From contig NC_088301.1 in assembly GCF_032854445.1 (NCBI RefSeq), forward strand, positions 44,697,116 to 44,761,115: 64,000 nucleotides of DNA, written 5' to 3'. The translations under genes and the position numbers were made by a program. Positions 1 to 60,598 of this stretch are shown one piece after another (position 1 is the stretch's first letter; every line of letters begins with the position of its first letter). The stretch comes from Liolophura sinensis (Eukaryota > Mollusca > Polyplacophora > Chitonida > Chitonidae). The notes beneath the pieces were generated by a model. It was not told the DNA's origin and ran no database searches. It saw nothing but the letters and a program-made list of their open reading frames with translations.

Positions 1-3000
1 CCCTACCGCAATAGGGTTAACATCGAACAAGGTAACAAAAAGCTATGACGGTCATGCTAGGTTGATTTTTTGATATGTTGTGGAGAAAAGTGCAAGTTGA
101 AAGTGGTGGTTTGGTCTGGTACCATGCCAAAGTTTTGAGTTTGAAATTGACAAATTTACTACATAAATAGTATGGAAAATCAGGAGGCTGGTGCAACTTA
201 CAATGGTCAAAAAAATTCACATATTCAGAGCGCAAATTTCTGTGCCCTCCAGCATGTGAATTTATAAGGCATGTACTCTCTTTACCACTGTCATGTATGG
301 TACTCGAGCGTGGGGAAAACCTCATGATGTAACAGATACAATATGACCTAACAATAAGACAAAAGTTAATTAAAACATCACCTACTTTGCAGAGAAACAC
401 TGCTGTTAATGTTCCAGCAACACAGTTCTTACATTATTGATTGGTAAATAATGTCATGCTGGCTAACTTATTTCATATTTCAAAAATCCCAGTCAAGGAT
501 TTGTCATTGCATTTCACAAAATTTAGAACATAAAAACAAAACAAGGCACAAACTGTGGTGTGCTCTTCTTAGTTGACATAAGGAAAGGGTGTGGGGCTTG
601 TGGGGTGTACTGCTGGCAGTAAATATTGTAGCATTACACATGTATATTAACTTAAGTGACTGTAAAGCTGCTTGAAGACACTTACATACATGTACATGAA
701 CACCCCGCATGAATGGACAACCTGGCACTGTTCCAAACGAATCAGGAACCACATTATGTCCCATCCCAAAGCAAGCAAATGTCATAGAAACCAACCCACA
801 CACAATGAGTTACATTTACAAATCCAATTGACTATCATTTTTCTGGGATTTAATAACTTGCCTACAGCAAACTGGAACTGAGCTACTACCACCCTAGGCT
901 TCTAACCAGCATGCAATGATAAACCCAATATTAAAACTGTATGCCAACAGGTGCTTGTTTCTCAAAGTGGTCTGTGCTATCACACTACAGGGGGGGTCAG
1001 TCCTGATTACAAAAATATTACGTGTCTCAGTCCTCTCTAATTTAACACACAAACAAAAAATATTTAAAATCCTGAGAGACTTTCCTGAATTTGCTCAGGC
1101 CTCATTCAGAAATCACAAGCTAAGACCAACCATGGACAATCTATACATGCACATACACAAGACACATATTTCCACTTTTAATAAGGGATAGAGAGGCTGT
1201 CAGGCAGGTTCATTACTGGAGGTGGCCTGAATGACAGCTACATGGACCACCAGAGGTGACAGGCGGCAAGGCATTGAAAAATGGCATTGAGATACAGTAC
1301 ACCGGTGTCAGACAGTAATAACAGGACAGGTGCATGTCACATACAATGTATATTCATACATTTTCACTTAGGCATGTACCTACAGGGGTCGTAATAACGC
1401 CTGTCTACCTGTCGGTGACAGGTCACAAAAAAAATCACCTGTCACAGTGACAGTTAGGCTCAATAAGTTTACAATAAGTCAATATCCATACATGTATATG
1501 TTTGTGAAGTCTGTATATTTACTTGGAGTTCCCATAATCAAAACATTGTTGCAAGTACTTCAGCACTGAAGAACGCCCTTCAGTAATCATTGCTACGGCA
1601 AAACTAGATCTGCAAAAAGCCGTTTTCCTTAGGCCCTAGGCCCTTCCTATCGCCCAAAAGTGTACTGTTTTAGGGCCGCCTTGTTAACATTTCTCGCTCG
1701 AGGACTACGCATGGCATCACAGGTGTGAAGGGGAGCAACTCAAACCACATATAAATCTAAATGCACACAGACCGGATGCTTTTCCTCAATTGTTTTCCTT
1801 GAATGGGAAGCGTATGCATACACAAGTACAGACTGAAATCTTGCAAGTAAGTCTGCTTTTGTTGATCAACAGAATTCTCAGTATGGACAGAATATTGAAC
1901 ATAAAGGGAAATGCTAATGAAACCAAATATTCTTGTAACACGGTAGGCTGACAGTACTTTGCCAAGGTGGCAATGTTGACAGAAAATTTCACAAAACTGA
2001 AATTATATGTTCGCAAAATGTGACAATGGCGATCGGTAGAGCTAGCAGAGATCATAGACTTTCTAAAAGTCATATTGATGGGGCCAGGTATATACATGTA
2101 GGTGAGAGGTACAAAAAAATTCTACCTGTCTCTGGGACAGACGGTATTTAAAAACATTTCTACCCCTTGAACAATGGCTATGCATACATGCACCTGTACA
2201 TTTGCATTCTTGCACAAGGAATATAGTGGTCTTAGAGCATATAGATGTACATGTATGTTACATACTCTCACGCTTAAAACTGTATTATGTACACAGTCTA
2301 TTTGGTTTTGCTATATACATGTATACATGCACATGAAGATAATTACCAAGTACATGTACAAGTATATGTGCATGTACACATAGCTGACAAATACCTGACA
2401 AGAAGATGGGCCGGATGGGTGTCTGTTTGAATAATTTAGGAACATCAGAAGAAAATAAACACACATTCTGTCTTGCTTTTCGTAAAGTTTAACTGAACAC
2501 TTCATTAATGTGCAGTACATGTACACGTTATCGGGTATATGCATACATTAAATCATGCCAAACCAAGACATAATAGAAGGCAGGTACTTGTATAAATGAA
2601 CATGTACAGTACATGTAAATTTCTAAAGTATTCAGTACATGTGTACATACACAATATATAACCACAATCAAATAAATATATACCAACTGAATCTCGTCTC
2701 ACCCAAGCATTTATTAGTTAAATGTTTATTAGACATATTACATGTTACACATGTATGTAACTATAAAATCTCGAACTAGATGCAAATCAGCAATGCTCTG
2801 ATAAGGCAAAATTATTGGTCAGCCAATTTCTTCCTTCACAGATTTGCATCTTTGTTCAATGAGCTCATTACAGATTTCATGAAATTTCAGTATAACGACA
2901 CAAGAAACTAATGGAGTTTGCACAATACAAGACACTGTGAAGCAAACTGATGACTGTATAAGTATTTCTGTAGGAGATCAGAATTAAAATCATGGCTGAG

Positions 3001-10720: not shown

Positions 10721-13677
10721 AATCCAAGTCAACGTTGCTGGCAGGCCCTAGCAAATCAGTTTTAAATTACTTTCATATCTCTCTTGGTGCCAGTTTTCAA
10801 GGTAAAAGCAGGGTTTTAGCCAAAGTAAAACTTAAAAGTGCACGGTGTGTCCAATTTTAAGCATCTCTGGGAAACCTAACCCTGCAAATAAACTTGAATA
10901 ATAAAAAGAAGATTACAATGTAATGGATGCCTAATTTATACCTGTCATTTAAGTCCAGAGAAATGAGGTGTGTCAGGTCTTCATGCAAATCAAGGCAGGT
11001 GCAGATTTACATGCAAGCCTAACTAGTGACCTTATCCAATAATGCCTAGTTTTCTGAAGACAGCATAATCCATTATTGGCTGCATGACTCACAGAACATG
11101 AGGTGAATTTTTCAATGATTTGTACAATGCTGCAGGGTAATGAGTCAATACTTAGGAGTCAGGTATACGATGATGTACATTTACCTGTATCGGAAAGTGG
11201 TGGTTTGAACTGCCAAAGTGTAAAAAGAACCAATACTGGCTACATACACAATATACAACACATGTGGCTTAATATAATCAGGAATGGAACTGAACCAAAT
11301 CATTATGCAAATGCAAACATTTTAAGTAATTTGAAAATAAGATGCTCACAGAAATATTTATTTTGAATATCAAAACTGACAAAGTCTTACAAACACAGAA
11401 TTTTAGACAATGTTTTCACTGAGTGTTCAAATAACAATCAAGGGTACATAAATGTAAATACTCACAGTTGCATGCAAAGTAACAATACGCCAATTCATAC
11501 TCTGTAACACGTGCTATGAGAAGTCAGCGTTTTTACATGTACATGTACATTGTATGTAAAAGGTGCTGTATGAATAGAGCACATACTTTCATCCATAACT
11601 ACATCTAGCGTAAGTGTATTTTTATCCACATGTGTTTGTTGTCCTCAAGTCATCTGATAGGAAGATGAAACACCCTCCCATCCAAAACATACATGTTGAC
11701 ATGACATGCCATCTTTCCCTATGATATTTATGTCTTGCAGGATTGAAAGATGTTAAATGTAGACAAGCGACACAACATTATCAGCTTAGGCTTGCCAAAC
11801 AAGGAAATATTAACGTTTATTTTGACACAATATACATGTACATGTAGCGTCTTCAAAACCTTGTTTGAAGCATGATGGTGTCAAAATATAACACAGCAGT
11901 ATTCTGGCCACTTAATGTTTAATACAAACAGTTACTATGTCAAGTCTTTTTTTCAAAAAATTTTAAGCTTTGAGGTACATGTAGACTATTCAGTGCTACT
12001 TTTAAAGCCTTTAAAACTTCCTTAGAACACGTATAATGTTACAATCCACAGATGGTTTTAAGCTTAGTTACATGTAGCTACATGTATAGAAAGAATAGAA
12101 ATACTACAGATATTAAATGTCACTAGCCTTCAAAAGCCTAGGTCTTACAGTTTAAATCTCTTCTGTCATACATGTGCTTTCACACAGATACATGTATATA
12201 ACACCACTTGAGGTTCGATTCCCTGCACATATTGTGTAACTTCATCACACTAATCTAGCAACATCTGCCTAAACAAAACCATTTCTAGACAATACTCTCA
12301 GATAAGGTCATGTGCCAATATAAAATGTCAAATAAACAGGCAGGTTTATCCCAAACTGACAGTCCCATGATGATGTGCATGCACATATACAGGTCTGACT
12401 AAATCTACCAAACTGACCCAGATTCAACAGGGTATGTAATGCTATTATCTTCAACACTGACTGATGCATGGTGGTGACCAGCACAATACAGGGATACAAA
12501 TATCTAATTTGGAAAGTGGATTGTGGAATAACTTGTGGAATGCTACTATTTATTACATGCACAATTTGAAAAGGTCATGACAATCTAGTGACTCTCATAC
12601 TATAAGTATGGTGCATGTATCTATTCATAAATATCATGCCGTCCCTTGATATACATACAATATACATCATAAGATGAACAGATGCATTGTACAGGTTTAA
12701 ATGAAGATATATAAGACATAGAACACATACAATCAAGTACAAGACATGGTTCAAATAGACAAAATTAATGTAAACTTCATGTTTACTACTGCATATTGTT
12801 AACACCCATATATGTATAAGAATACTAATAATTTCTCCTTTGGAAAATAAAGACAGACAAGGCTGTGGGTGGGAGAATGGAAGGGTGCTTGCTCGCTATA
12901 GATACAGTACTATACCTCTCCTGTTGATATGCTGAATGATGGAGCGCAACTAAGTGACAGTTAGCAAAATTGGGCAGGTCCACTTAAGCAGTCAAAATCC
13001 AAAATGAGGCAATATGGCTAATGCCTGTTGCAGAAATATTAGCTACATATCTTTTGTAAGGTTTTTTGGATAACTGTAAAAGGTGGTGACCTTGAAGGCA
13101 GTGCAAGACATAGCTTACATTGAAAACAAGCCATTTTATTGAATAATACACTTTCTCCGTTATGTTTGACAAATTATTTGTGGTTGAACATTTACATGTA
13201 CATATAGGTTACCTGCCCAATTTCGCTGCAGCACTCCGTCCATCAGCATATCAATAGGAGAGCATCAGCACTATATCCACATGTATCTTGTCCAAACTTA
13301 AAACTATTATTCTTCCTTTCACCGATAAGCCTCTGAACCAATGAGGTTGCCACTGCTGTCTGCATTGTCAAGATGTTTTTTGCAAAGAATGATAGCCAGA
13401 TCCGGATGTTCTGGATTCTGTCACCCATAAACATGATCATCATCATATATATGAAGCACATGCAACTACCTGAAATATGCTTCAATACTGCATTAGTCAG
13501 CAATCATATAAACAAATAAATAATGAATTACCACATACAGCTCAATTAAAGTACATCCATTACACGTATCATTCAATGATACATGTACCTATATGAAAAC
13601 ATTTTCTGCAGTTGACAGCATGAGTGAAAATTGATTATATTAACTGCTGGTTTACAGTGAAAAAAAATTTACATTAC

Positions 13678-14697
13678 CTGAATCTCTGCTTGAGCCACTT
13701 TATACTGTTCATTCAGAGTATTATATTTGGAGTTTTCCTCTTTCCTTAACGTTCTTTCTTTTTTTAGTTCAGGACTCCAAAAAGTTTTAATACTGTTCAT
13801 ACAGGAGCTGAGTTTTTCTTTGGTAGCATCCAAGTCCCTCATTAAGTTTGCACTTTCCCGATTAGCATCAGATAGTTGTGCCTGGAGTTCATGGACCCCT
13901 AAACGAGCATCAAGATCCCTGTGTGATGATGGGTGAAGCATACTGTTCAGTTCAGCCTGAGACTTTGATGGTAGACTTGTTGAAAGTTGACTAAGTTGAC
14001 TAAGTTGCTGCTCTAAAGTTGACTCCTGCTCTATAGACCTTGATCGGCTGACTTTGTGATGGGCATAGTCGCGTTCCAAAGATCTCGCCCCCATATAGGG
14101 GTAGTCACGGTCCAAAGAACGATCACGTAGAGCGGCTCCACGTCTTTCACGAGGTAAACTCTCACGCACGTATCCATGTCTATCCAGCGATGCTGTACTA
14201 TTTCGCTCTTGTTGCAAGAAAAGGGCTTCTCTTTCAGACAAACGATCAGCTGAACGATCCCTTACCAGATTCTTCATGCTTGCTGTGCTGTTGGATCTAC
14301 TGCTGTGGGTAGGGCTTTGATACGGGCTCCTGCTGGAAGGAGAAGGGATTGGGCTTGTGGCATATCCAGGTTCCAGGTATGTTCCCTGTCCTAGATTGTA
14401 CACTGCACTCAGCGACTGCAATGTCTCCATGGGTAGATCTAAAGGACTGTTGGCACGGCTTCCTTGGCGGCTGCTTGAGGCACTACCGCCAGCGCTACTT
14501 GAGCCCCCTGTACGACGAGTCCTTGCCGTAGGAATAGATCTGGACATGGAAGCACTTTGAGGTACTGGCTGTCCCAGCAGTGTTGAAAGTGCACTCCCTG
14601 AGTGGTGGCTCTGTGTGCCACCTTTATGCTTTGGACTTTGAGTAGATGCATCATGTTTGGTAGGTGAACGAGAATAGGTTTGTGACTGTCCGTGCAT
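13678..14697 (-). CDS. ERC: ELKS/ERC/CAST active-zone scaffold, first coding exon (partial gene)
   Basis: A 340-codon exon with ATG at 14,697 and donor CAG|GTAATG at 13,677. Residues about 296-340 (KLSSCMNSIKTFWSPELKKE, then RTLRKEENSKY and QYKVAQAEIQ) match the highly conserved stretch of human ERC1/ERC2 that starts KLSSSMNSIKTFWSPELKKE. Residues 90-107 (PMETLQSLSAVYNLGQGTYL) match the short N-terminal ERC motif SMENIQSLNAAY..YL. Between them lies a Ser/Arg-rich, probably disordered linker with repeated RDRSLDRDY/RSLERDY units, then the start of a coiled coil near 265. ERC proteins organise presynaptic release sites and bind RIM, liprin-alpha and Rab6; some isoforms act in cortical secretion. 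The frame is fully open. Downstream coiled-coil exons were not found in this window. A likely 5'UTR acceptor lies about 15 bases upstream of the ATG. Confidence 0.93.
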
Positions 14698-14712
14698 TGT
14701 TGTTTGGATACT

Positions 14713-16337
14713 GTTTTTGGGACCTTTTAAAAATATTGGAAGACCTTATTTGCCTTACAAATTTGTGGTGACCTCTAATTTCAAATGAACTCCATGAAAC
14801 CTAAATATGTTACGGTATTCATATGCACTAACAGTCATGATAATCTAAAAAATTTAAATGGGCTCGTGCGTTAGATATTCCTTGACTCAGTTTTTATACT
14901 TTTTCTACGCCACCAAAAAACATTTGCACGTTAAAAGTTGGTGATGAACTCACCACACGAAAACTGGACAATCTTCAATGAAAGCCAGGCAATCATTGGG
15001 AATCTGTACTCAACCACTTCGCGTTCGCTTTAGCTCCTTGTCCTGATTGTCTTTAAAATTTATCGTCTGTTAACATTATCGCCCACGCCCATCACGTGTT
15101 CTTGGCCTACCCCGAAATATGTCTTTCAACAAAATCACATTTTCAAACGAAAACGCCCAGTCTCCTTTGCTCTCCTCCCCGGCATCCCATCCTTCCAACA
15201 TCAGCAGCAAGCGATCAAAATCCGACAGTCCATCTCATGAATATTCAATCTTTGCTTTTCACTTCCGGTCATTTATATATTACAAATACAATATCGTGAT
15301 GTACTACCATGCACAGTAATGTTCTTCTAGATACTCTTATGTGCTATATACAAATCTGATGGATATAACAATGCATCATGACATCAAAGAAAAATCACCG
15401 ATAAGTGTTGGTCCCCTGGTTTAAAAAAATCCGTAGGATCTTTCATGCAAGCGTATCCACAGGCTTTCATATAGGCCTACCTTGGGCGAATTAGAGACAT
15501 AAATATTCAATGGCCAACATGAATATGGTTTCGATTAAATAAAAAGTACATGAAATAAAGATCAAATTTACTTTAATTGTTTACTGGTTGAAATAAGTTT
15601 CCTTGATTTTGCAGATATCAGAATACTGACAGGACCCTCTTCAGGACCTAGGAGGAGACTTGTCTAAATAAAATTGTTTTCCAAGTTTATGTTTTGTTTT
15701 TGATTGTTACTTTATGCCGTACTCAATAATATTTCACTAATAGTGTGTTGGTAAGAATTAAGGTGAGAGAAAAATGAGCAGAGCAAGGCATGACCCAAAA
15801 ATAGTCACAAATCATTTTTCAAATCAAATTAAAAGCTTACAGAAAGTTACTGTGCTATACATTTTAGCTTTACAACCATGATGGTAGTACTAGTAAAATT
15901 CAGAAAGTATTATGATAAAGCAATAAATTATAGAACGTTTAAAATTATTATTACTCTATATATGTGGGACTAATAGAACATTTATCTGTTATATTAGTCT
16001 CAGTATATATGTATTGTGGAATTCCATTAAGGTTAAAATTGACAGAAGTAATATAGGGACAATGAATAAGGTATGCTAAGTAAATGAATAAATACATAAA
16101 TAAAGTTATAACAGACATATCCACGTTAAAAATGGGCATTTTTGAGCTTAGGTACCTGCCAGTTTGCCCACAGCTAAGCGTCCGTTGAGAAAGTTAATTT
16201 CAGGGAGATTATTGTCCTAGGATGAAATTTACGAGGCACAGACGCATTTCTAAGATTTGATTGGCCTGCGTCAAAAAATTGCGCAAATATTCAAACAACG
16301 ATACTGTGCGCAGACATCAAAACACCACTAACGAAAA
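14713..16337. promoter_or_regulatory. Divergent ERC-RAD52 intergenic/promoter region
   Basis: About 1.6 kb separates the ERC start (minus) from the RAD52 start (plus), so the two promoters lie here or partly in 5'UTR introns. Visible motifs include an E-box CACGTG at 15,093-15,098 and an ETS-type ACTTCCGG at 15,261-15,268. The 15.0-15.3 kb part is richer in C and CpG than its surroundings. No TATA box can be assigned with confidence. Confidence 0.4.
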
Positions 16338-28531: not shown

Positions 28532-28641
28532 CTAATAAGAATGTTCTTTGTGCTTCTTCTTTTTCTTTTTCTTTTTGTGGGCACCTGATGGTTCATGATG
28601 GTCATCAGCTAGGACCTCTGAATAACGGGTTGCCGAAGATT
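28532..28641 (-). CDS. POLR1G: POLR1G last coding exon
   Basis: Phase 1 entry after TTTTACAG, reading ESSATRYSEVLADDHHEPSG then AHKKKKKKKKHKEHSY and TAG. It has the same layout as the repeated exons (acidic part, then lysines) but is longer. It resembles the exon at 33,121-33,222 in its start (ES) and upstream TTTTACAG. Confidence 0.85.
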
Positions 28642-31600
28642 CTGTAAAATAAGTTTGAAATCTAATTTATGAAAAATAAAAAGAAACAACTTTTAAAAAA
28701 TATCTGTGACTTTGCTGATAATAATGAGATTACAATGCCTTGCACAAGGTATTTGCTGAAGACCACTTATCTTTCTCTGATATGGTATGCATATCTATAT
28801 GTTGCTTGTGGGAAAACAAAAATCTTGATAATGGTGTTAAACAACAAACAACCAAATAAATATTAGACATACTCTACACACCAGTAAATTACTACCAGAC
28901 ATAATCGTACGCTGGCAAATTACTAGACATCAAGCTTATGCTCATTTCCTCTCATACTAGGAAGGCCTGCTAGCAACCTGCTGATGGTTGTGGGTTTCCC
29001 CTGGTGTCTGTTTTGTTTCCCTTGCCGTTGTAGAAGTGAAATATTCTTGAGTATGGCAAAAACAGCAATCAAATAAATCTAAAAATTAATACATACAGAT
29101 ACTATCAGACATACACTAACTGATCACAAGAAGAACCTGTCAAATGGCAGCTAAAATGAGAGTGGCCGAAGCCTAAATGTAAGCACTTTGTAGTACTAGA
29201 TTTCAGTATCAGGTTGTTCTGGCAATAAGATACGGAAGCATAACAGAGAGAAATGGCTAGTCTTGTTTATTAATACATACCAGACTGATCTTGACTGTGC
29301 TTTGTTTTTTTCCTTCCAAAAACAGATGGTTCATCATCCACATCTGTATAATAATCTGAAATTTATAGCAAAAAGTCATGCCACGCACCGTCAGTCACAA
29401 GTGGTACTCTTAAGATCTAAAACTTGAAGTTTTTTTGTAAGGATTTAATTTTTTCCACTTTTGCTTACAAAACAAACACCTATGACCACAAGGATGTTTG
29501 GCTATGAAACCATTAACAGAAGACTTCCTAACAACTTTATTTGCACTACCACTATAATCACTAGCCGTTTTTGCTGGCAGTACAATGAGTGAGAAAACGA
29601 ACTGTCTAGAAATGGATGCAATAAGAGTTAAGGTGACTGTAGTTTTATTTAATAATACATACCAGACTGATCTCTGATCTGCTTCTTTCTTTTCCTTTTA
29701 GTAACAGGCCGGCTATCATTCACATCTGTGTAATAACCTGAAATTTATAGTAAAGTCAGGTCTGTCACAAGTGGAAGATAAACTAACGAAGGCTATCAGG
29801 CCAAGAAAAGTTGATTTTCTGTGTCTATGATTCACGACATTCTCCACCAGAAAAAACATTTCTGTCATCCGTGAATGTGTTGCACTGCATGCAGTTGTTC
29901 CCCTTTGAGGAACACTATGGCATTTAAAATCGGGAGAATGATTCTTCCTTTATATATGACTACCCTAATTACTCAACCTTTTCGCAAATGTAAGAGCAAC
30001 TCTCAGTGCAATTTTTACCTATAATACCTTCGATAATACCTTTAGAATATGCTTGAATAAACACTTTGTAAACATGTGAAAATGTTGACGACTTACAGTC
30101 TATATTATACATGTAAGCCAGGTTTAAACTAAGAAAAGTTGGCAGCTCGAGGCAGGTTTATGTTTACATGACTAGCGCAAAAAAGTAACCTGAACTGAGC
30201 CGGATCCATTCCAGAGTTTTTTTTCTGATACACCAAGTGGTCTAAATTATAATGTTCAGTCCGCCGCAAACGCCCAGATGGTAATCAATGTCTCACGTCC
30301 ATAGTAATAACTGATGTGATAGGAGCAAGTTTGTGCCTTCTATAGGCAAATCTTACACTATATATACTGACTGACATGTGAAAGCAAGCAGCCATAAATT
30401 GGTGAAATAAACAAAGCAAGCGTCACACCTAAAGTTAACTTTAGGACAACCATTGCCATCACTGAAATAGGAAGTACCCTAATTCTTCCACCTTTTTAAC
30501 CACCTGTCCAGGCCAATCAATATTTTAAAAGATTGTGAGAACTACTGGGTGAACAGAAATAATTTGCAGTTTTTAATAGGAAGCTTGCATCTTCAATGAC
30601 ACAAACAAATAATTTTAGCTTCAATTCAAAATAAATGAATGTATAAATTTGAAAGAAAAAACTGGTTTAGAGGTTGAAGATTTACAGCAGAGCATATATG
30701 TTATTAATCAAAACAGTTTTATGTAAAGATGTGCTTCTTCATCCACATCTGTATAATGATCTGAAACTTACCTGTATAGTAAAAGTCATTTCACACACAC
30801 ATACACTTCCTTGGTCACGAGTGAATCTCTTAATATCTAGAACTTGTCAGCGTTATTAGTGAGTATTTGGTTTAAATGACTTTCAAAAGAAAAAGCAACG
30901 GCCCCAGAAGTGGGTATGGCAGGTAGTAGTAACCAACCGTGGCGTGATTTTTGGGAGGCTTATAGTGAGGGACACTGCAATTTTCTTTGATAACACACAC
31001 CAGATTGACAGGTGGGCTATCATCCACATCTGTGTAATAGTCTGAAATTTATAGTGAAGGCTCACATCACACACAAATACATTGTGTCAATCACAAGTGA
31101 GTGAGTAGAGAACAGGCCCTTAGCGAGTGGTTGAAGCAGTTGCCTTTCAATTGCCTGGAGACACAAGATACTGGTTCAAAGCCACCCTTGGACAGGGAAG
31201 TCGATTCCACCATTCTCAGTGTGTTTGGTAGGTTTAGTAGGTACAAGTTGCATTAAGTTTTATTGTGACACTTCTTCTCATGTTCAGCAGTTTTCCTGTA
31301 AATTTCCTACCACCATACATCATGACATGTTTACCTATAAATAGAAATGTGAGATTTATTGTTCCTGTGTTTGTATGCACTGGAGTAGGTAGAGCTGAAA
31401 TCATATAGAGAGATCATGGCATACGTCTCTCTACTTATGTATGTGTAATTCTGATTATACATACCAGACTGATGTCCACTATGCTGTTTCTTTTTCCTTT
31501 TAGTAACATCATCCACATCTGTGTAATAATCTGAAATTTAGTTTCAAGTCAGATTACACCTACACAGATGTACACTTTCTTCAGTTACAAGTGGAACTCT

Positions 31601-34600
31601 GAGAGCTACAAGCAGTGAAGGTTATTAGGGGACAATAAGTTAATTTTCTCAAGCACTGCTTGCATGACACTCACCACCAACTTCACAGTTTTGGCACCAT
31701 ATCTTTCTATAAACTTGTACTTTCAAAGGCATTAGATTCATCACGCACATAGATAAGCCTCCTCTCAGTCAAGAAAGCTGTGTCTGCTAAAGTAGGCAAC
31801 AATTTTAAGCCAGTTTTGAGCTACCTGTCCTAACAACCATCGCCATGAATGCACAAGTCAAATGAATAGTTTATAAAAGGAGGTTGTGAAGTACATGCAA
31901 AGAAAAGGTTTCATGCACGCTTAACTTTTGTAATGGAAAATAGAAATAAAATCTTTCACCCAAAAAAATGCCTGAACAACAAAGAAACAAATTTGTGTGG
32001 CCTTACATGATTATATACTTTTTATAAGGAATAAGGAATGGTGACTGTGACATTAAAGTGGCCCATGTTATAATAACGAACAACAGTATTTTCATTTACT
32101 AGTACCACAGGTATACAGGTATGTAAAATATATAAATAATAATATAATATTTCAGACTATATATAGCGTGTTATATGGTGCAGTGCATTTCAACATACAT
32201 ATTCCTTCCAGTCTGTCTAGCAACTGAAACTATGTTTAGAAATGGGTATGGCAGGTGGTTGTAAGCAACTGTGACCTTATAATGGGAAGCGTTACAGGAC
32301 CGGACAACTGTAATTTAATTTAGTAAAACATACCATATTTATCTCGACTATGCTTTTTTTTCCTCCTTTTAGTAACAGATTGGTAATCCTCCACATCAGT
32401 ATAACAATCTGAAATTTATAGTAAAAAGTCACATCACACACAGGCATACACTGTCAGCCACAGATCACAGGTCTCTAACTGCAGAGTGTAAACTGGCGGG
32501 TGTTGTTACAGGTAGTGAGTGGGGAGCGGGCTCTGACCAAGTGGTTAAGATGGTTGTACACGGAATTTGTAGATTTCACCACTCTTGAACGACAAAAATT
32601 GTGGAACTCTTAAAAGCTAGTGAGAATTATTAGTCATTAGGCAGCAGGCCATGAAAAAGTGGTTGAAGTGGTTGCATTTTAATTGAGTCATGGCTCCAAC
32701 TGCAAGTAAAATATGGTTCTCAACTCACAAATGGCGACAGATTGAGACACTGTGGCAAGTACATGTGTATAAAGAAAGGTTACTGCAAGTGTGTCAAATC
32801 TATTGACAAGGCATACATAAAAAGATTATGGTGATTATGTGCAACTTTCAGCCATTGCGTCAGCACTCACTCACCCCAATGGGAGATGGGAGGCTCCTGG
32901 GTCATAGCGCCACGTGGGCGTGCTAACCCTCTCGACCACAGAGGCTCCAAAACCGAATAAAAAGTCACGTCATAATCTGTCCTCAACTAATAGCAACATA
33001 ATAATTTTTAGACCAGCATACAAAAACTCTTTCAAGCATCTGCAATAGAAGACTACAACATGCTTTATAAATTTAATATGTGATTTTTGTTTTACTCAAG
33101 ACGTTTACAACATATCTAACCTCTTTCTTTTTTTCTCTTGCGAACATCTATTGCTTCATGAGGGTCATCCTCCACTGAGGATTCATCAACTATGACCTCA
33201 GTCTGATGGACCATGGGAGATTCTGTAAAATGAAAGTCAGTTTACACCTATACTAAAGCAGAAGCAGATTTCAATAAAACATACAGCATATCGTGTTGAT
33301 GTACCATATGAAATGAATGCAGAATAAGTGACAGAATTATTGGTATTAACAGCAATCTTGATCAAATCAAATCATCTATAAACTGTTAAAATAAGAATAC
33401 TAACAAATCAAAAATGTTCACAAATATGTATAACTGACAGAAGCTTCTAACCAGCACTTTCTTGGATGCATTAGAAGCCAAACTCCTCGGGGACCTTAGC
33501 AAAACTGTAGTTTAAAAGCCATTTTTACATCCTAAGAAGAAAGTTAAGAAGCTTTTATGCACTTGTACATGTTAGGCCACACAATATACTCCATATTAAG
33601 TAAAAACATTTGCCTCAGCCAGCACAGGCCCAATAAGTGAAACTTGATCCAATAAATACAAGGAAATGTATGTAATACATTATGAATTTTCTGGCATGTG
33701 TTTCATCCAGAATTGTGGACTTGATGGGATTTTTTTGACGGGTTACTTATTTGACAGTTTCGCAGCATCAATCTTTAATGAATACGTAAAAAGCTACCAA
33801 GGCAAACTTAAATAAAGACAAAGAAACCTGAAAAACTACCATGTTCATAACTAACAAACCTTACTCTGTGAATTTAAAATACCACATACCAGACAAATGT
33901 CTTTTGTGCTTCTTTTTCTTCTTCTTGCTGTGTTGTGAGCCACTGTTCCTTACGGGAGACCCTGTCAAGGAAAAAAACAAATGCAAATCAGCAAAGATTA
34001 AGATATTCCCTAAAACCTCAAAAACTGAACAGGGAAGAAACTACATTAGGGGGGGTTGTCAATCTTTAAATGTTTCAATGAAAATGTTATTTAGATAATC
34101 CACGCGGAATAATATTCTAAGTGTATGACAATATAAATACCTTCGGTAAATATGAAAATGTTATGTTAAAATTTATAAAACAGTTCATATTGAAACATTT
34201 TAAAAACTTACAATCATTTTAACACTATAGATAGTAAAGTACCAGTCTCGTAAGTACTGCAAAAAAAAAATAACTTGACCTAGTCTTGGGAAAGTACAGA
34301 AAATTTGATTTGATTAGTGAATAGGGATTTGGGGTCAAAAATCTCTAGTGTAGCCTCCTTAAGCACAAAATGTGGTAGTGGCTAAAACATCCTTGCTTAG
34401 AAGTATATTTGTAAGCCAGTTTCATTATATCTTGTAGATACATATATAGTATTCTAAAATAATCCTCAACAAAAGGGGTAAGACTTTACCAGGCCAAACA
34501 CCAGGCTAATTCAAATCACCACATTTTTACTGGAATTACAAATTTATAAGTAACAATTATTAAAACCTCTATGAAATCCTACTTGAACTGAAACAGGGCT

Positions 34601-37600
34601 TCAGAATGACTTATCATTTTAGTCTGAAAGAATGCCAAATCTACATCTACCAAATCACCTGGTGTCCAGCAGGCAGTCCGAAGTTGTCTACTGGAGCCAA
34701 TCAGCGCCCAATCCACCTTAGCATGTTGTGCAAAGACTGCTGAACTGATCTATAAAGTTTACTGGACTATCCAATGAGAGCCAGGAAATGTCCATCATTA
34801 AGAGCATGTCTCCATGTGTTGTACATTCCAAATGACTTACCTGACCCTAAAGGTTGAAATCTAGCTTTCAATCCTTCTGGTAGTGGTTTAGGTGCAGGAA
34901 CTATTGCCGCTGGAATTAAGACTGGAGGGACTGCCACTGACTGGACAATGCTGAGAAGCCCACGGATTTCTGAAACTAACCATGGATTATTTAAGTTTTG
35001 ATGTTGTTATTTGAGATTTACACTCAAATTTACATTACAGGTGTAGAACAGATTCTAGAGCTGAAAATTGGGCTGGGACCATTCTGAGACCAATGATAGG
35101 CACCAAATCTTGATTGAACAACCAAGCTTTTCAAATAGCAATTTTCATTGCAATCTCTTTAAAAACTTATTTAACACATAATGCACATTCTAGAGCTTTC
35201 ATCTTCGTCGAATCCTTAAAACACTATGCATTTTATATTAAATTGTTTCCACTCTGTTTCACAACACATTTATTTAAAAAAAATATTAAAACTGTTTACT
35301 TGAGTTTATTAATGTGATATGCTCTATTCAACAGTCACAAAATCATGTTAATAGCTAAAATGAAACTTATGTGTCACAGAGGAAGAGTGAAACAGGTTCT
35401 GGAAAACCACAGCCAAACAGCAGCATCAGGATTTAGGAGATGGACCTGAACAAACAACTTGTGGTGTTTCAGTCTGACATAACCTCTTCTTAGATTTTAT
35501 GCTCAGTTCAACCGAGTAATCAGTACCAAATCTGACCAATGTTGAGTAGAAGAGTCTACAAATTAGTTTGTAATTTAAAACCATTTCACATTTTTCCCAA
35601 CTATTCTGGTTACATGATGTATCATTAAAGGCAAATACAAATCTATGGACGAATCATAAAAACAGTTAAAATTGACAGAAAACACTTATTTACAACTCTT
35701 AACTGAGACAAGACACACTTATACATTACACAACAAAGTAGCATGACAGTAATCAATCATTTCTGAAGATCCTGTTTAGCACCAATCCATTTTTTGATTA
35801 AATGTGGCCAAATCATAAACACTTTCATTGTCTACTTTTGCAGTGGTCCACTGGGATATAATCACATGGGTATACAACATATTCCCCCAGTTGAAGTGAA
35901 GATCAAATTTTAGAGACCAAACACCCAATACAAGAATAGGCTTTGTACCTGCAACCATCTTCTTACTATTGGATACGACTGGTTGAACGTTGATCATCTG
36001 AAAGAAATCAAAAGATATGCTTAAAAAAAGTTAATAGTCTGAGGGGAGAAACATCTGACCTCTAAATTGTTAAGCTCAATGTTCTGTTCCTGTACATTAA
36101 TATGCAATCCTAAATGTATTAAGCATTCATATTTGTGGTGAATAGCTGGTTAATTCATGCTTCTATAATGAGGCATAATCATTAAATTGAAATTATCAAG
36201 ATCATTCTTATCGGTCCCCCATGGGATCTCATAGAACTCTCCTGTTTACATAACTTAAAAAAATGAGACAAATAACTGTCAAAAAATATTATTTTTGAAA
36301 CTTATTGTTTCCCATGCTTCTTTGCTTGTAAGTTACCATGTTTATTGATACCTTCCAAGATACACTGTAACACCTTTGTAAGATCAAAAGCTCTCAGAAC
36401 CATAAAAAATGAGTAGCTTAGTAATGGACAAAAGTAATGCATCGTTTGAGCTGGAGGCTTATTTCATTGCCAACATATATTGAAAAAGACATGTCAGACT
36501 TACTTCATTAGTTCTTTCTTTTGATGCTTGTACTTCAAATGAGTTGTTCCCCTGTGACAAAAACAATAAAATAAAATAAACAAGACACACAACATGAATA
36601 AACCACTCTTATGAATATATCACCAAATATCACTTAGTAGACAGAAAGATGGAAACAATTCATTACTTGCTTTTGGCGTATACAGTATAACACTGTCTGT
36701 GCAAGACAAAAATATTCTAATCATTACTTTTGCAATACGAAGTGTGCAACAAAAATCACTCTAAATGACAATCATTACCTACAACACCAAATGTGCAAGA
36801 CAAAGTGTACATTACTTGAAATACAAGGACCACTCAGTTTAGTTACAAACCTTCATGTGGAGAATAATGGACAGCATTTCAGTAGCTTACTTATTTTGAG
36901 CTTAATTCAAAACAATTAACAGTGTTAAATCAAGTATTTCCACTGTGAGTTCAAGCCCAGCTCAAGCTGGCTTCTTCTCTGGCCGTACCTGGGAAGGTCT
37001 GTAGCAACCTGCAGATGGTTGTGAGTTTCCCTCTGGGTATGCCGGTTTCCACCGACCATAATGCTTGCCGCCGTTGCATAAATGAAATATTCTTGAGCAC
37101 GGCATGAAACACCAATCAAAAAAAAATACAATAAATACAATGATTATTAGTTACTTCTGTGTATCATGAACAAAATAACTGAACTCGTCTATTGCCCTTT
37201 TAATTGCATAGATCTCCTTGGTTTTAATAGATCTACATATTCCATGGGTTAACACATTTTATCTTTTGTTAACTGCATTCAGCAATGATGGCTAACAGAG
37301 TTGGGCTGCACCAGCTATGTTTGTGTTAATGAACAGTCTCTTATTATTCACAAATACATGAGCCTAGGTCATATGCAGTCAGAATTACTTCTGGAAACCT
37401 ACTTTTGTAGCCTCATGTTTTGACCTGATGAGCACACCAGATGTGAAAAGACTGTGCTGTAGGTTTAATGAAAAGAGTACAGGTGTGTATTTCTGAAAGC
37501 TAAACTGGGAAGTATGAAAAGTTTCAGATCTAGGTTCAAAACAAAATTAAACACCAAGAGAGCCAGACAAAGCCACCTGTACACTAGAAATTTTCAGCCA

Positions 37601-40600
37601 TGTTAGATCTGAGAATATTTCCATTTGTTTTTATTTGCTGTGTACGATATACATGTATCTGTACAAAAGGAAAGACTTAAAGTGAGCACAAAGTCTTCCA
37701 CTAAAGCTGAAGTAATTAATAAAGTAGTATTCCACAAATGTTCTAAAAAATTTTAAAAAATTTTACACTGCTTATCAACAAAATAAATAGCAAATAATTG
37801 GCAGTACCTAGCCACTCATTTGGTGACACAATTTTGCAACAAAATGAATAGTAAACAATCGTCAGTACCTAACCACTCATTTGGTGACGCCATTTTGCCA
37901 TGTTATAGCTATCTAGAGTGACGTCACAAAACCTAGGAGTCCCCCGTACCATCGGTATTATGTGACAATATGACGAGAAGATACAAACAAAAATGCCGGA
38001 TACCCAACCAAAGAGTATCAGCATTGTCCTGTGTTCAAAGGGGTGATGTTTCTTTTAGTCTGGCACTTGGTTGAGGGTTTTCGTGGACACAAGTGTCATG
38101 TTTTAGTGGTTCTGCTCGTCCTCGTCCTGCATGGGTGAAAGCATTTGGTCTAGCTGACTGTAGCCACTTTAGGGAATTTACCGAACATAGCAGGACCTTC
38201 TCATTGATAACACTTTCATTCAGATTTTGGGAAGATGTTTTTGTAATAAATCTGAATTTGCAAGGAAAAATAATACAAAGTCTTAATATTTTTCTTTAAG
38301 CAAAGACTCTTCAGAGGAGGTTTTCTTGCCAGCTCACCCTGACAAGTTACTGCAGTATCCTGCCCAAACATGTACGCATTGTGACCGGAGCAGCAGTTCT
38401 CAGTTCCCTGCTCACAAATGTGTGGTTCATGTGTGCATCAGTTTAACATTTACACTAACTGCAATATCCAATTTATTGCATCGATATCTATCTATCCGCT
38501 ATAACAAACCAAACTGAAAATCTACAGCTAATAGTTTTTTTGACATGACAGCGAATTATCACGTGACGCTTTCAGCAATAGTGGTTGGCCAAGTTCATAA
38601 GGGCTTCTACAACATGGCTGCTCGGAGCGAATTGTTCGTCAGTGCCATATCCTCAATGCTGAACTTCATCTTCTCGGCTTTCAAAACTTTATAGAATTTT
38701 TTATGTATTTTTCTGTGATAGCTGTATCCTATATCAGTTTTCTATATAACGTATATATAATGGCAAACATTACGTTCATTTTAAATACTGAGTGTAAGGG
38801 TCAATTATCTGTAAACAGTCTGTCACTACTATTAAAAAGAAAATTACCAATTCTGATGGTCCTAGTGACTGAACACCTTGGAGAAGCAGAGCTTTCCCTT
38901 TCATGTTGTTTAGGTCAAGCTGAAAAGATAGCAAAGAAAGAAATCTATGACATTTCAATCACTTCTGATACCAGTATACATGATAGTTGGTAATTCCATT
39001 AAATTACAAAGCGGATTTAAATGGAAATCACCATTTTGAATACACTTACATATGCATGTATTAATCATTGTACCTACATGCTTATGATATGTTACACATG
39101 AAATGGAATTCTATCTTTATAAGGAATGCTTTATCATGTCACTGTATAAACGGTATGTACCTGACTGAAATTTAAATAAGCAGTACAGGTATATATCCCT
39201 GAAGAGAGCCCTAGTTCAAAACTGCAATGCAGCTGAACTGTAACAAAAAAACACCATCTTCTTTTGGGGTGGTGGATGGGGGTGGTGGGAGTGGTGGTGA
39301 GTGGTCAAATATCAGTAGTGATGAAAACAGAATATCACATTTCTTTCCAGCTTTTTGGAAAGATATGAGTATGTTGTTCATTAGATGGTCTAAGCATGTG
39401 AGAAAAAAAAAACTGAATATCCCTACAGTCACACGTATCTTGTCTAACAAGAGCAGACCCAAAAATCAGAGAGAGCAAGTGAGTGCTTGGGGTTTAACGC
39501 CGTACTTAACAATCTTTCAGTCATATATGGACAAAGGAGTCCTTCTGGCCAAACATTACAAGAAACAGGGTATGTGATTTTAACCTAAAAGTTCAACAAA
39601 ACTAAAACTGAACAACTTACCCCAGCTGGTGCACGAACTAACCACAAGTCCGTTTTCTCGGAGGAATCCTCTTCATACCACAGGCATCCTTGATGATCAA
39701 TGTTAAAACCTTCGTCCACTTCCACATTTTCATGATTTCCCGTTCTAGAGGGCGCCTGTTCCTGCTGCCTTCTCAACATTTCTGCTTCAAATGTCTTACT
39801 TATGCCAATATCCTCCTCAGAACTGCTGTCACTGCCAGATCCATTGAACTGATAAATGTCTGTATCTTGGGAAGGTGTTGGTGGTTTGGGAGATGACTTA
39901 GAAACACTAATGCTCTGCTTTTCTGTTCTACGCAAGGGGATTTGCTTTCTCATCAGTTCTGCATGAAATGTTTTACTAATCCCTGTATCCTCCTCAGAGC
40001 TGCTGTCACTGTCTAAGTTTACTGCCAAGGTTGATGAAGTGGACGCTTTGTAAGGAGATGCACCATTTGAGCTTTTCTTGACCATCAAGGCACTGGTCTT
40101 ATTATCCTGCACTGAGGTAGGGGAGCCACTAGGTTTGTCCTTGGTTTCTGTGTGTTTTGTTTTAACAGGACTTTCTACATGTGTTCCACTGGACTTTTCA
40201 GGAGATTTATGTTTCAATTTTTTTGTCTTCTGCTTCCCTTTTATGGGTCCACTTTGAACACTGTCTGATGACCTGAACTCTGAAAAGTCCATGACTGAAA
40301 CTTGCATTTTGTCATCTCCTGGCACACACAATGATTTATGATGAAGAGGAGAAGTTTCTAAATCACTTTCCTCAGAACTTCCTCTTCTGTTTCGCTCTGT
40401 TACCCGAGGTACCCTAGAGGATGACTGTTTCCTCTTTACTCTTTCTTTGCTGGGCACATCCCCTGATTTCTGTACATTTCTGTACTTGTTACTGAGCTTA
40501 GATATGCTAGTTCCAGGGCTCAACAAATGAATCTCTGGGTCAGGTGAATGAATTTTCTGGGTTTCAGTTTTGTTGCCCCTTAGTGACATATGCTGACCAA

Positions 40601-40808
40601 CCTTTTTTCTTAGTTTTTCTTGTGAAGATTTTAAGTTCTTCATTTCTCTTTCTGAGTCAGTACCTTTCTTAGTAGATCTATCACTTCTGCTCTTTTTAGA
40701 ATTTTTAGCGGGTCTTAACTGGACCTCAGCTAAGTTACTAGATGCTTTCTCTACCATTGTTTTCCTGAACAATTCATCTAATTCCACATCTGACTCATTG
40801 CTGCTCAT
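28532..40808 (-). CDS. POLR1G: RNA polymerase I subunit RPA34 (POLR1G/CD3EAP), 12 coding exons
   Basis: Exons in transcript order: 40808-39621, 38919-38848, 36551-36504, 35997-35949, 34969-34841, 33961-33890, 33222-33121, 32408-32334, 31530-31465, 29737-29663, 29355-29281, 28641-28532. Lengths sum to 2,061 bases: 686 codons plus TAG, with all phases consistent. Family evidence: TDLWLVRAPAG (residues 386-396) matches ELWLIQAPADF of human POLR1G; NMKGKALLLQGVQSL matches CFNGRHVPLSGSQIV; PEGLKARFQPLGSG matches PPGLRPRFCAFGGN. RPA34 pairs with POLR1E/RPA49 on nucleolar RNA polymerase I and aids rRNA gene transcription. The lysine-rich C-terminal tail is a family trait. Odd points: about 385 residues precede the conserved core (about 40 in human), and part of the tail is encoded by a repeated micro-exon. 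The product name is inferred from short matches. Confidence 0.82.
28960..29085 (+). mobile_element. SINE 3' tail in POLR1G intron
   Basis: GATGGTTGTGGGTTTCCCCT, TGCCGTTGTAGAAGTGAAAT, ATTCTTGAGTATGGC and CAATCAAATAAAT form a dispersed tail also seen at 36,960-37,135. Confidence 0.65.
29281..29355 (-). CDS. POLR1G: POLR1G micro-exon repeat copy 5 (intact)
   Basis: Seventy-five bases, phase 1-1, between AAATTTCAG and G|GTATG. It reads DYYTDVDDEPSV, FGRKKTKHSQDQS. The basic part is slightly changed (GRKKTK rather than TKRKKK). Confidence 0.85.
29663..29737 (-). CDS. POLR1G: POLR1G micro-exon repeat copy 4 (intact)
   Basis: Seventy-five bases, phase 1-1, between AAATTTCAG and G|GTATG. It reads GYYTDVNDSRPV then TKRKRKKQIRDQS. 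Both splice sites match the other copies. Confidence 0.87.
30730..30760 (-). pseudogene. POLR1G micro-exon relic, 5' part only
   Basis: AAGTTTCAG is followed by a close match to the repeat start (DHYTDVDEE), but the basic part and the donor are missing and the frame runs into unrelated sequence. This is a decayed copy of the duplicated exon. Confidence 0.65.
31001..31041 (-). pseudogene. POLR1G micro-exon copy, shortened, frame-shifting
   Basis: AAATTTCAG leads into DYYTDVDDSPPVNL, then a GTGTGT that could act as a donor. It has lost the TKRKKK part and would end in phase 0 rather than phase 1. Including it would bring a stop in the next copy, so it is probably skipped or dead. Confidence 0.65.
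31105..31260 (+). mobile_element. tRNA-derived SINE head in POLR1G intron
   Basis: AGCGAGTGGTTGAAGCAGTT then a B-box-like GGTTCAAAGCC and CTTGGACAGGGAAGTCGATT. A related head is seen at 32,515-32,570 and 48,105-48,220. It may have provided homology for the local duplications. Confidence 0.5.
31465..31530 (-). CDS. POLR1G: POLR1G micro-exon repeat copy 2 (intact, short)
   Basis: Sixty-six bases, phase 1-1, reading DYYTDVDDVTKRKKK then QHSGHQS. It is three codons shorter than the other copies, between the acidic and basic halves. Acceptor AAATTTCAG, donor G|GTATG. Confidence 0.87.
32334..32408 (-). CDS. POLR1G: POLR1G micro-exon repeat copy 1 (intact)
   Basis: Seventy-five bases, phase 1-1, reading DCYTDVEDYQSV then TKRRKKKHSRDKY. 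Acceptor AAATTTCAG, donor G|GTATG. Most upstream copy of the array in the transcript. Confidence 0.87.
32505..32600 (+). mobile_element. tRNA-derived SINE head fragment
   Basis: GACCAAGTGGTTAAGATGGT then GTAGATTTCACCACTCT, related to the head at 31.1 kb. A further partial (AAAAGTGGTTGAAGTGGTTG) lies near 32,650. Confidence 0.4.
33121..33222 (-). CDS. POLR1G: POLR1G coding exon 7
   Basis: One hundred and two bases, phase 1-1, reading ESPMVHQTEVIVDESSVEDD, PHEAIDVRKRKKER. Acidic then basic, as in the repeat copies. Donor G|GTTAGA is weaker than its neighbours. Confidence 0.8.
33890..33961 (-). CDS. POLR1G: POLR1G coding exon 6
   Basis: Seventy-two bases, phase 1-1, reading GSPVRNSGSQHSKKKKKKHK then RHLS. 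First lysine-rich block of the tail. Donor G|GTATGT as in the repeat copies. Confidence 0.83.
34841..34969 (-). CDS. POLR1G: POLR1G coding exon 5 (family core)
   Basis: One hundred and twenty-nine bases, phase 1-1. Hydrophobic IRGLLSIVQSVAVPPVLIPA and then PKPLPEGLKARFQPLGS, which matches the human POLR1G Pro-rich core ending PPGLRPRFCAFGG. Acceptor GTTTCAG, donor CAG|GTAAGT. Confidence 0.88.
35949..35997 (-). CDS. POLR1G: POLR1G coding exon 4
   Basis: Forty-nine bases, phase 0 to 1, reading MINVQPVVSNSKKMVA. Acceptor TTTCTTTCAG, donor CAG|GTACAA. Confidence 0.75.
36504..36551 (-). CDS. POLR1G: POLR1G coding exon 3
   Basis: Forty-eight bases, phase 0-0, reading GNNSFEVQASKERTNE. Acceptor TTTTTGTCACAG, donor GAA|GTAAGT. 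Confidence 0.72.
36960..37135 (+). mobile_element. SINE 3' region in POLR1G intron
   Basis: GATGGTTGTGAGTTTCCCTC, CATAATGCTTGCCGCCGTTG, ATTCTTGAGCACGGC, then CACCAATCAAA. Same family as 28,960-29,085. Confidence 0.65.
38848..38919 (-). CDS. POLR1G: POLR1G coding exon 2 (family core)
   Basis: Seventy-two bases, phase 0-0, reading LDLNNMKGKALLLQGVQSLG then PSEL. It directly continues LWLVRAPAG from exon 1 and aligns to the human POLR1G segment with NGRHVPLSGSQIV. Acceptor TATCTTTTCAG, donor TTG|GTAATT. Confidence 0.82.
39474..39580 (+). mobile_element. Molluscan SINE end fragment
   Basis: GTGAGTGCTTGGGGTTTAAC, GCCGTACTTAACAATC and TTTCAGTCATAT form a well-known dispersed motif of mollusc genomes. 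It lies in POLR1G intron 1, close to the exon 1 donor. Confidence 0.7.
39621..40808 (-). CDS. POLR1G: POLR1G coding exon 1, long N-terminal extension
   Basis: A 396-codon exon, ATG at 40,808 and donor GGG|GTAAGT at 39,620. Residues 1-380 are low-complexity, rich in Ser, Lys and Glu, with basic clusters (about 195-200) and acidic Ser-Glu tracts. The start SSNESDVELDELFRK is acidic. Two near copies of a module occur at residues 266-289 and 326-348: SDSSSEED, then GISKTF, AE and a basic end. The last 11 residues (TDLWLVRAPAG) begin the RPA34 core. The start is the first ATG of the open frame; an upstream 5'UTR exon is possible near 42.05-42.13 kb. Confidence 0.85.
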
Positions 40809-58849: not shown

Positions 58850-59391
58850 GTGAGTCCCTACTGCAATTAGATATAAATACATACTAAATGCACTTGTATA
58901 AGTGTGCATGCTCTTCTTGTGTACCAAGTGTTCTCTGCTCTTCTTCAGTGTGAGAATCTTTTCCCTCAATTTGGCCAGTAAATATAGTCACAAGCTGGTA
59001 TACTGTACATGTTTGTCTTTATTAACATGTAGTTCAAGACAATAACTTTGAATGTCTGTAGAAACTGTGTCATGTTCTTGTATATAAGGATTTAAGCCTG
59101 GAGGTTTATCATATTCAAGTGTAGCCACCTACATGTACAAGTCTGACAGCTCTTGCATGAGCGAAAAGTACATGTAGTTGATTAAGGCATCTATAGAAAA
59201 CTCTTGACTATTCAAGAAATAAACAAATCATTACTTGGGAGTGGATTTAAGTGAAAAAATGTTGTGTTGGTTTTCTCTTTCAGCTACATGTTAATGTTCT
59301 TTGGTACATGTAGGTTATAAAACTACAGAAAAGGGCACACAGAGGGTGCAAACCTGTCACGGCTAAATGTATAAATTCTGGCACTACATGC

Positions 59392-60598
59392 AGATGGACA
59401 ATACCCTGCATTTCTGTCCTTTCTATAATGTACATGTCTAGGGTGATGAATCAATGGACAATACCCTGCATTTCTGTCCTTTCTATAATGTACCCGTCTA
59501 GGGTGGTGAATCAGTGGACAATACTCTGCATTTCTGTCCTTTCTATAATGTACATGTCTAGGGTGATGAATCAATGGACAATACCCTGCATTTCTGTCCT
59601 TTCTATAATGTACATGTCTAGGGTGATGAATCAGTGGACAATACTCTGCATTTCTGTCCTTTCTATAATGTACATGTCTAGGGTGATGAATCAATGGACA
59701 ATACCCTGCATTTCTGTCCTTTCTATAATGTACCCGTCTAGGGTGATGAATCAGTGGACAATACTCTGCATTTCTGTCCTTTCTATAATGTACATGTCTA
59801 GGGTGATGAATCAATGGACAATACCCTGCATTTCTGTCCTTTCTATAATGTACCCGTCTAGGGTGGTGAATCAGTGGACTATACTCTGCATTTCTGTCCT
59901 TTCTATAATGTACATGTCTAGGGTGATGAATCAATGGACAATACTCTGCATTTCTGTCCTTTCTATAATGTACCCGTCTAGGGTGATGAATCAGTGGACA
60001 ATACTCTGCATTTCTGTCCTTTCTATAATGTACATGTCTAGGGTGATGAATCAATGGACAATACCCTGCATTTCTGTCCTTTCTATAATGTACCCGTCTA
60101 GGGTGGTGAATCAGTGGACAATACTCTGCATTTCTGTCCTTTCTATAATGTACATGTCTAGGGTGATGAATCAATGGACAATACCCTGCATTTCTGTCCT
60201 TTCTATAATGTACATGTCTAGGGTGATGAATCAGTGGACAATACTCTGCATTTCTGTCCTTTCTATAATGTACATGTCTAGGGTGATGAATCAATGGACA
60301 ATACCCTGCATTTCTGTCCTTTCTATAATGTACCCGTCTAGGGTGATGAATCAGTGGACAATACTCTGCATTTCTGTCCTTTCTATAATGTACATGTCTA
60401 GGGTGATGAATCAATGGACAATACCCTGCATTTCTGTCCTTTCTATAATGTACCCGTCTAGGGTGGTGAATCAGTGGACTATACTCTGCATTTCTGTCCT
60501 TTCTATAATGTACATGTCTAGGGTGATGAATCAATGGACAATACTCTGCATTTCTGTCCTTTCTATAATGTACCCGTCTAGGGTGAAGAATCATTTTT
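59392..60598. repeat. 60-bp satellite, 20 copies, with 120-bp and 600-bp higher-order units
   Basis: Twenty head-to-tail 60-base units containing CTGCATTTCTGTCCTTTCTA. Diagnostic sites alternate between neighbours (TCAATGG/TCAGTGG strictly; ACATG/ACCCG mostly), giving a 120-bp dimer. The variant pattern of units 2-10 repeats exactly in units 12-19 and nearly in 20, including a rare GGACT in units 8 and 18, so a 600-bp block was duplicated. It lies after the 58.7-kb exon, presumably in its intron. Confidence 0.97.

Follow-up and report, generated by a model that had tools for sequence, protein, structure and literature searches.

The locus studied here raises the question of how the acidic and lysine-rich tail of an RNA polymerase I subunit can become longer. 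It is located in a stretch of 64,000 nucleotides (nt) of the genome of the chiton Liolophura sinensis (contig NC_088301.1, positions 44,697,116 to 44,761,115 of the forward strand, hereafter the window), in which the gene for the subunit RPA34/POLR1G runs on the minus strand from position 40,808 to position 28,532. The species of the published assembly, presented there as L. japonica, was renamed L. sinensis by a correction (PMC12441733). From the comparison of its exons and introns, the tail encoded by this gene was very probably lengthened, in part, through several rounds of duplication in which a single small phase 1-1 exon was copied along with its intron flanks. Each intact exon of the resulting array would contribute one acidic patch (YYTDVDD-like) and one lysine/arginine cluster, and the four intact exons are predicted to be spliced into the messenger RNA (mRNA).

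The RPA34/POLR1G gene and its array of small exons

The identity of the gene, already proposed as RPA34 in an initial annotation of this DNA whose reference to molluscs was right as well, was confirmed by a match to the Pfam domain RNA_polI_A34 (PF08208) at E 4.6e-16, with a score of 59.9 bits (cut-off 31.7), the alignment covering residues 384-580 of the protein and positions 2-183 of the 205 in the profile. A PDB sequence search with the protein gave four matches at E <= 10, led by the A34.5 chains 3nff and 3nfg (E 0.012), the other two being at chance level (0.22 and 0.24); with the tail alone, a single chance-level match was obtained (E 0.38). The gene model comprises 12 coding exons in a single open frame of 686 residues, with GT-AG at 11/11 junctions, the first three introns being in phase 0 and the remaining eight, from E4-E5 onward, in phase 1. 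The lysine-rich tail follows the A34 domain and consists of seven modules, each with a lysine/arginine cluster. No Rfam family was matched at the gathering threshold between 27.5 and 41 kb.

Four intact array exons, all phase 1-1 and on the minus strand, make up the core of this tail: R1 (32334..32408, 75 nt, DCYTDVEDYQSVTKRRKKKHSRDKY), R2 (31465..31530, 66 nt, that is 9 nt shorter and in frame, DYYTDVDDVTKRKKKQHSGHQS), R5 (29663..29737, 75 nt, GYYTDVNDSRPVTKRKRKKQIRDQS) and R6 (29281..29355, 75 nt, DYYTDVDDEPSVFGRKKTKHSQDQS). Their positions and their lengths of 66-75 nt agree with those initially annotated, as do the common acceptor and donor, since each is preceded by AAATTTCAG and followed by G|GTATG. 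All four encode [DG][YC]YTDV[DEN]D, then a spacer and a basic run, contain no stop codon and keep the frame and both splice sites. The count of four copies was correct for the intact ones; the total is six, two decayed copies between R2 and R5, named R3d and R4d, having been missed. The term micro-exon, also used initially, has to be dropped. Micro-exons are very short exons of about 50 nt or less, a size that these units exceed. The proposal that symmetric phases keep the frame was sustained by phase 1-1 in R1, R2, R5 and R6 and also in E5, E6 and E7. E6, E7, R1, R2, R5 and R6 each have a length divisible by three and phase 1 on either side, so that the gain, loss or skipping of any of them leaves the reading frame intact.

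The claimed homology of the copies was well supported by a self-BLAST of the region 27.5-36 kb, in which array copies match each other at E values down to 7.9e-26 while being about 20% different; an assembly artefact, considered as another source of the copies, is unlikely because of this divergence. A nucleotide profile built from all six copies, four intact and two decayed, was searched against the window, where it recovers by construction its six copies at E <= 1.3e-27, also matches the donor half of E6 (E 7.1e-4, nhmmer) and gives no further match better than E 4.5 in the 64 kb. In the same way, a 21-nt core with up to three mismatches is found at six sites of the window, all on the minus strand and all inside the array, with two added sites (12,821 and 5,686) at five mismatches.

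Outside the window, the Liolophura sinensis genome (609,464,459 bases) was searched with a 300-residue piece of the protein, from DLWLVRAPAG to the end, and 11 of the 12 matches fell in this gene, the twelfth having an E of 1.5. At that sensitivity, with which two short exons of RPA34/POLR1G itself score only E 1.9 and 2.1, no second RPA34/POLR1G locus, paralogue or retrocopy, was found genome-wide.

Flanking introns and the probable route of duplication

The initial annotation had claimed that exon and flanks were duplicated together. Identity was therefore expressed as matches over length, pooled over all six pairwise comparisons of the intact copies, and compared with the maximum of 100 shuffles. 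It amounts to 0.744 in the exons (shuffle maximum 0.624), 0.938 in the donor, taken as the first 8 intron bases (0.729), and 0.808 in the acceptor, taken as the last 20 intron bases (0.658). Further away, the upstream intron from 21 to 95 nt gives 0.602 (0.600), the downstream intron from 9 to 83 nt gives 0.618 (0.629), and the next 75 intron bases up- and downstream give 0.540 and 0.571, both within the shuffles. The likeness of introns among intact copies thus drops to approximately background within tens of bases, the exons being far above it. When pairs including the decayed copies are considered, flanks more than about 70 nt from the acceptor match at p <= 0.01 in 2/15 pairs (R1-R3d and R4d-R6), and distant downstream flanks in 1/10 pairs (R1-R3d). 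The R1-R3d intron match is present on both sides of the exon (z 8.2 upstream and 18.3 downstream) and that of R4d-R6 upstream (z 6.4), and a block is common to 31,100-31,153 and 32,632-32,685. Consequently, joint duplication of exon and flanks stands for the near flanks and, for the distant ones, is visible in R1/R3d and R4d/R6 only. The conserved intron block said to accompany each acceptor is present as well, although unevenly, R2 having diverged, R5 having lost a part and R1 having no clear CACAAGTGG. Another pair of intronic repeats of the gene, at 28957-29093 and 36989-37139, is 73% alike.

Unequal exchange within introns would be the probable route of these duplications, and some rounds may have copied a block of two exons. 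In the 35-site cores around the acceptor, R3d-R5, R4d-R6 and R2-R6 each differ at 3/35 sites, which together with the R4d-R6 flank match suggests that both R3d-R4d and R5-R6 may derive from a single block of two exons. For R1-R2 this scheme does not hold in full. Several observations count against the joint duplication or its block form: no match of the distant flanks reaches p 0.01 for R2-R4d, R2-R6 or R1-R5, alignments involving R5 contain paired compensating one-base gaps within the exon, and the top BLAST partner of R1 is R6 (81% over 113 nt), so that the evidence bears out the two-exon blocks only in part.

The shared donor and acceptor ends of the array exons would also arise from repeated insertion of one element, as in a history where the repeats once formed a single long exon and introns were later inserted, introner-like, at the same point of each. 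Such insertion predicts array-type ends at the first donor and the last acceptor, but E7 (33121..33222, minus strand, 102 nt, phase 1-1, with an acidic part followed by a basic one), which ends |GTTAGATATG, has the non-array donor GTTAGA, and E14 (28532..28641, minus strand, the last coding exon with the stop, ESSATRYSEVLADDHHEPSGAHKKKKKKKKHKEHSY) is preceded by the equally non-array acceptor CTTATTTTACAG, later mutation being possible in both. Neither the E7 donor end nor the E14 acceptor end has an array partner at p < 0.01 in ungapped tests. As these outer ends lack the shared sequences, copying of the exon plus its flanks fits better than intron insertion, which is also opposed by the R1-R3d homology extending to both sides of the exon and by intron ends beside R6 that match only RPA34/POLR1G (5/5 matches), and which is accordingly quite improbable.

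A dispersed mobile element exonised several times in RPA34/POLR1G was considered as the origin of the exon unit, a dispersed repeat being indeed present in the E7-R1 intron (32887..32948, minus strand, tRNA-like by eye). This repeat is located outside the array unit. It has at least 59 genome matches including itself, among the 40 of 264 candidates scored, and the 58 non-self matches in that set all lie over about 32887-32948; over the R3d-E7 stretch of 2,251 bases, matches outside the gene were likewise confined to the dispersed repeat among the 40/272 candidates scored. On the other hand, a DNA search of the genome with R6 and its flanks, which ignores very common words and in which R4d is absent from the matches, returned five matches, all within RPA34/POLR1G (5/5 candidates scored). 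The exon moreover encodes an acidic-to-lysine module like those described for A34 tails. On the candidates scored, a mobile-element origin was not borne out and has very little probability. R6 and its flanks gave no match to phage records either, as expected. The dispersed repeat also occurs in rows, with a spacing of about 49-54 bases, on contigs C11, C8 and C6.

Decayed copies, constraint and splicing

Both decayed copies are on the minus strand. R3d (31001..31041) has an intact acceptor and an intact YYTDVDD, 34 nt of its basic half being deleted; up to a GTGTGT donor it measures 41 nt, which shifts the frame, so that the protein is predicted to end after DYYTDVDDSPPVNLVITQM when R3d is included and followed by R5. 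R4d (30710..30760, the low end being approximate) has an altered acceptor, no donor and an in-frame stop into which its reading runs (DHYTDVDEEAHLYIKLF). In the R4d acceptor (30761-30774), extra bases form a donor-like CAG|GTAAG immediately before the AG.

The intact exons are likely under constraint. Among the four, pooled differences per synonymous site (pS) are 0.315 and per nonsynonymous site (pN) 0.207, the acidic half evolving more slowly (pN 0.107, pS 0.217). A pS of 0.315 corresponds to about 0.4 substitutions per site between copies (Jukes-Cantor), or 0.2 per lineage, and in a neutral survival simulation with 0.2 substitutions per lineage and an insertion-deletion/substitution ratio of 0.1 the probability (P) that at least 4 of 6 copies stay intact is 3.9e-4. 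This conclusion has to be weighed against several points. The pooled pN/pS is only 0.66 and comes without a significance test, and the basic half is quick to change (pN 0.257, pS 0.372). The simulation rate is assumed, P spanning 2e-5 to 0.1 over 12 settings and 5.6e-4 to 0.61 if 12 copies were once present. Furthermore, acceptor and YYTDVDD are preserved in the decayed copies to about the same degree as in the intact ones, and conservation of that stretch therefore cannot separate live from dead copies.

The array exons might instead be relics, all skipped in the mRNA, as the fading trace of an older tail: two of the six copies are decayed, pN/pS is 0.66, and skipping all four intact exons preserves the frame. 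Against this, four copies have kept the frame, both splice sites and lengths within 9 nt of each other, without a stop, despite intron flanks that are near background, and this relic reading is judged to have little probability. It may also be supposed that R3d was retained as a poison exon truncating the tail, given its intact acceptor, its possible GTGTGT donor and the early protein end predicted upon splicing to R5, and the acceptor and the first 26 bases of the exon are indeed kept about as well as in the intact copies. However, recent death of R3d gives the same pattern and R4d, which has no donor, is also well kept in that stretch; a poison role for R3d is very unlikely.

A further step would be that alternative splicing, along with the birth and death of exons, sets the number of lysine clusters in the tail and thereby tunes the nucleolar contacts of polymerase I. 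Since six modules (E6, E7, R1, R2, R5 and R6) are each a frame-neutral exon, splicing may set this number, a proposal that is put forward tentatively and is in itself rather unlikely. If true, the tuning could vary by tissue, individual or species, and a tail encoded in a single exon would lack such a dial. Symmetric phases would allow, as well, the mutually exclusive choice of one array exon per transcript. Other chiton genomes and Liolophura RNA sequencing have been published (available portions of PMC11068029 and PMC12005716), which makes module gain and loss and the splicing control of tail length directly testable.

The rest of the tail, comparable tails and other observations

Three tail exons stand outside the array. 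E6 (33890..33961, minus strand, 72 nt, phase 1-1, SPVRNSGSQHSKKKKKKHKRHLS) is basic and has no acidic part; on its donor side it is identical with R5 at 28/40 positions and with R1, R2 and R6 at 25, 26 and 23 of 40, and the first half of E7 is identical with E14 at 27/48. These likenesses suggest that older rounds of the same exon duplication may have made the remaining tail exons. At the protein level, against a shuffle in which the basic part stays last, kinship with the array reaches p 0.0064 for E6, 0.046 for E7 and 0.024 for E14, which is suggestive only. The DNA halves appear to give a clearer kinship, in ungapped tests whose background is such that the unrelated pairs E2-R1 and E2-R6 (exon) and E2-E14 (intron) also give p values under 0.01, the comparison covering 55 acceptor-side pairs for exons and 55 for introns.

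The upstream exons, on the same strand, encode the A34 domain and what precedes it. E1 (39621..40808), the first coding exon, has an open frame and a GTAAGT donor and encodes a long N-terminal extension of about 385 residues, at the end of which the A34 domain begins (DLWLVRAPAG); within this extension (39621-40808) the motif SDSSSEEDxGISKTFxAExxRxQ occurs in two copies. The domain continues in E2 (38848..38919, phase 0-0), E3 (36504..36551, phase 0-0), E4 (35949..35997, phase 0-1) and E5 (34841..34969, phase 1-1).

The repeats of human POLR1G would lie within one exon, a layout that was sought in the literature and not found in the part covered; if so, the human and chiton tails may be convergent, reached by different routes as initially suggested. 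According to the available part of PMC11765491, A34 tails are predicted to be disordered and highly prone to phase separation. They consist of repeats in which an acidic stretch precedes lysines, the human tail having nine, and they lengthen from yeast to human by more such repeats. Like human A34/PAF49 as described there, the chiton protein has, beyond the dimerisation domain and arm, a repeated acidic stretch followed by a lysine cluster. Its seven tail modules are distributed over seven exons, E6 being without the acidic part, and the regularly spaced prolines reported for the human repeats contrast with only two prolines in the four intact array modules (PMC11765491). A term search of the text of PMC11765491 found the words exon, intron, tandem and duplication absent. 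The chiton locus is a visible record of one route to a longer A34 tail, through whole-exon duplication with the decayed copies still in place.

As to function, the chiton tail may act like other A34 tails, its lysine-rich sequence making nucleolar contacts close to polymerase I. It resembles the KKE/D tails of yeast Rpa34, Nop56, Nop58 and Cbf5 in being lysine-rich, with alternating charge blocks, and on a polymerase I subunit, and the yeast Rpa34 tail shows a strong two-hybrid interaction with the tails of Nop58 and Pxr1 (in the portion of PMC11528048 at hand). The same source tempers such a role: removal of the yeast Rpa34 tail alone caused no pronounced growth defect and did not significantly change ribosomal RNA modification, and its data give no support to the idea that KKE/D-KKE/D contacts are critical for the targeting of small nucleolar ribonucleoproteins (PMC11528048). 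The chiton tail would be a multivalent region for nucleolar contacts, with a length that has at most a quantitative effect.

Nop-family genes of the chiton served as a control. A Nop-domain search of the genome gave 12 matches in three loci, each read over 10 kb from the domain end and without full gene models. Two of these loci, unlike RPA34 with its one cluster per small exon, have at least two lysine clusters in one exon: in L043 (3932-4171) they share one exon-like stretch, another cluster being in a later exon, and in L044 (about 1034-1317, reverse strand) they lie in one exon-like stretch in two overlapping frames, for which an assembly error, an unseen intron and a real change are candidate explanations. 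The third locus, L045, has short basic runs only in the same scan.

The PEVK exons of titin share one phase. As in titin PEVK, where many small repeated exons of one gene change in number by exon duplication and loss, the chiton array consists of repeated small exons; it differs in having six copies in a polymerase subunit gene, human titin exons 112-224 forming the PEVK and serving a spring (available text of PMC6469411). Tandem duplication of symmetric exons is already known, and chiton RPA34 is a new case of an unsurprising mechanism. An exon array in an A34 gene was not found in the literature as covered by titles and abstract openings, subscription papers being mostly outside this coverage.

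Some minor observations concern neither the array nor its gene. In the window, positions 59314-60618 are minisatellite-like, the unit measuring about 20 codons as judged by eye, and are open in long frames of 428 and 431 residues on the two strands, and a minus-strand open frame at 13669-14745 resembles what we take to be an ELKS/ERC-type protein. Elsewhere in the assembly, contig C99 has seven COX1 matches about 15.5 kb apart between 8348 and 102844, apparently head-to-tail mitochondrial genomes, the row apparently being an assembly product or a nuclear insertion. On the mitochondrial contig, which is 15,209 bases long, COX1 was named by Pfam, and the other frames are presumably COX3, ND3, ND2, COX2, ATP8 and ATP6 on the strand of COX1 (in the order COX3, ND3, ND2, COX1, COX2, ATP8, ATP6) and ND1, ND6, CYTB, ND4L, ND4 and ND5 on the other. 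Such a mitochondrial gene order is known from chitons and vetigastropods.

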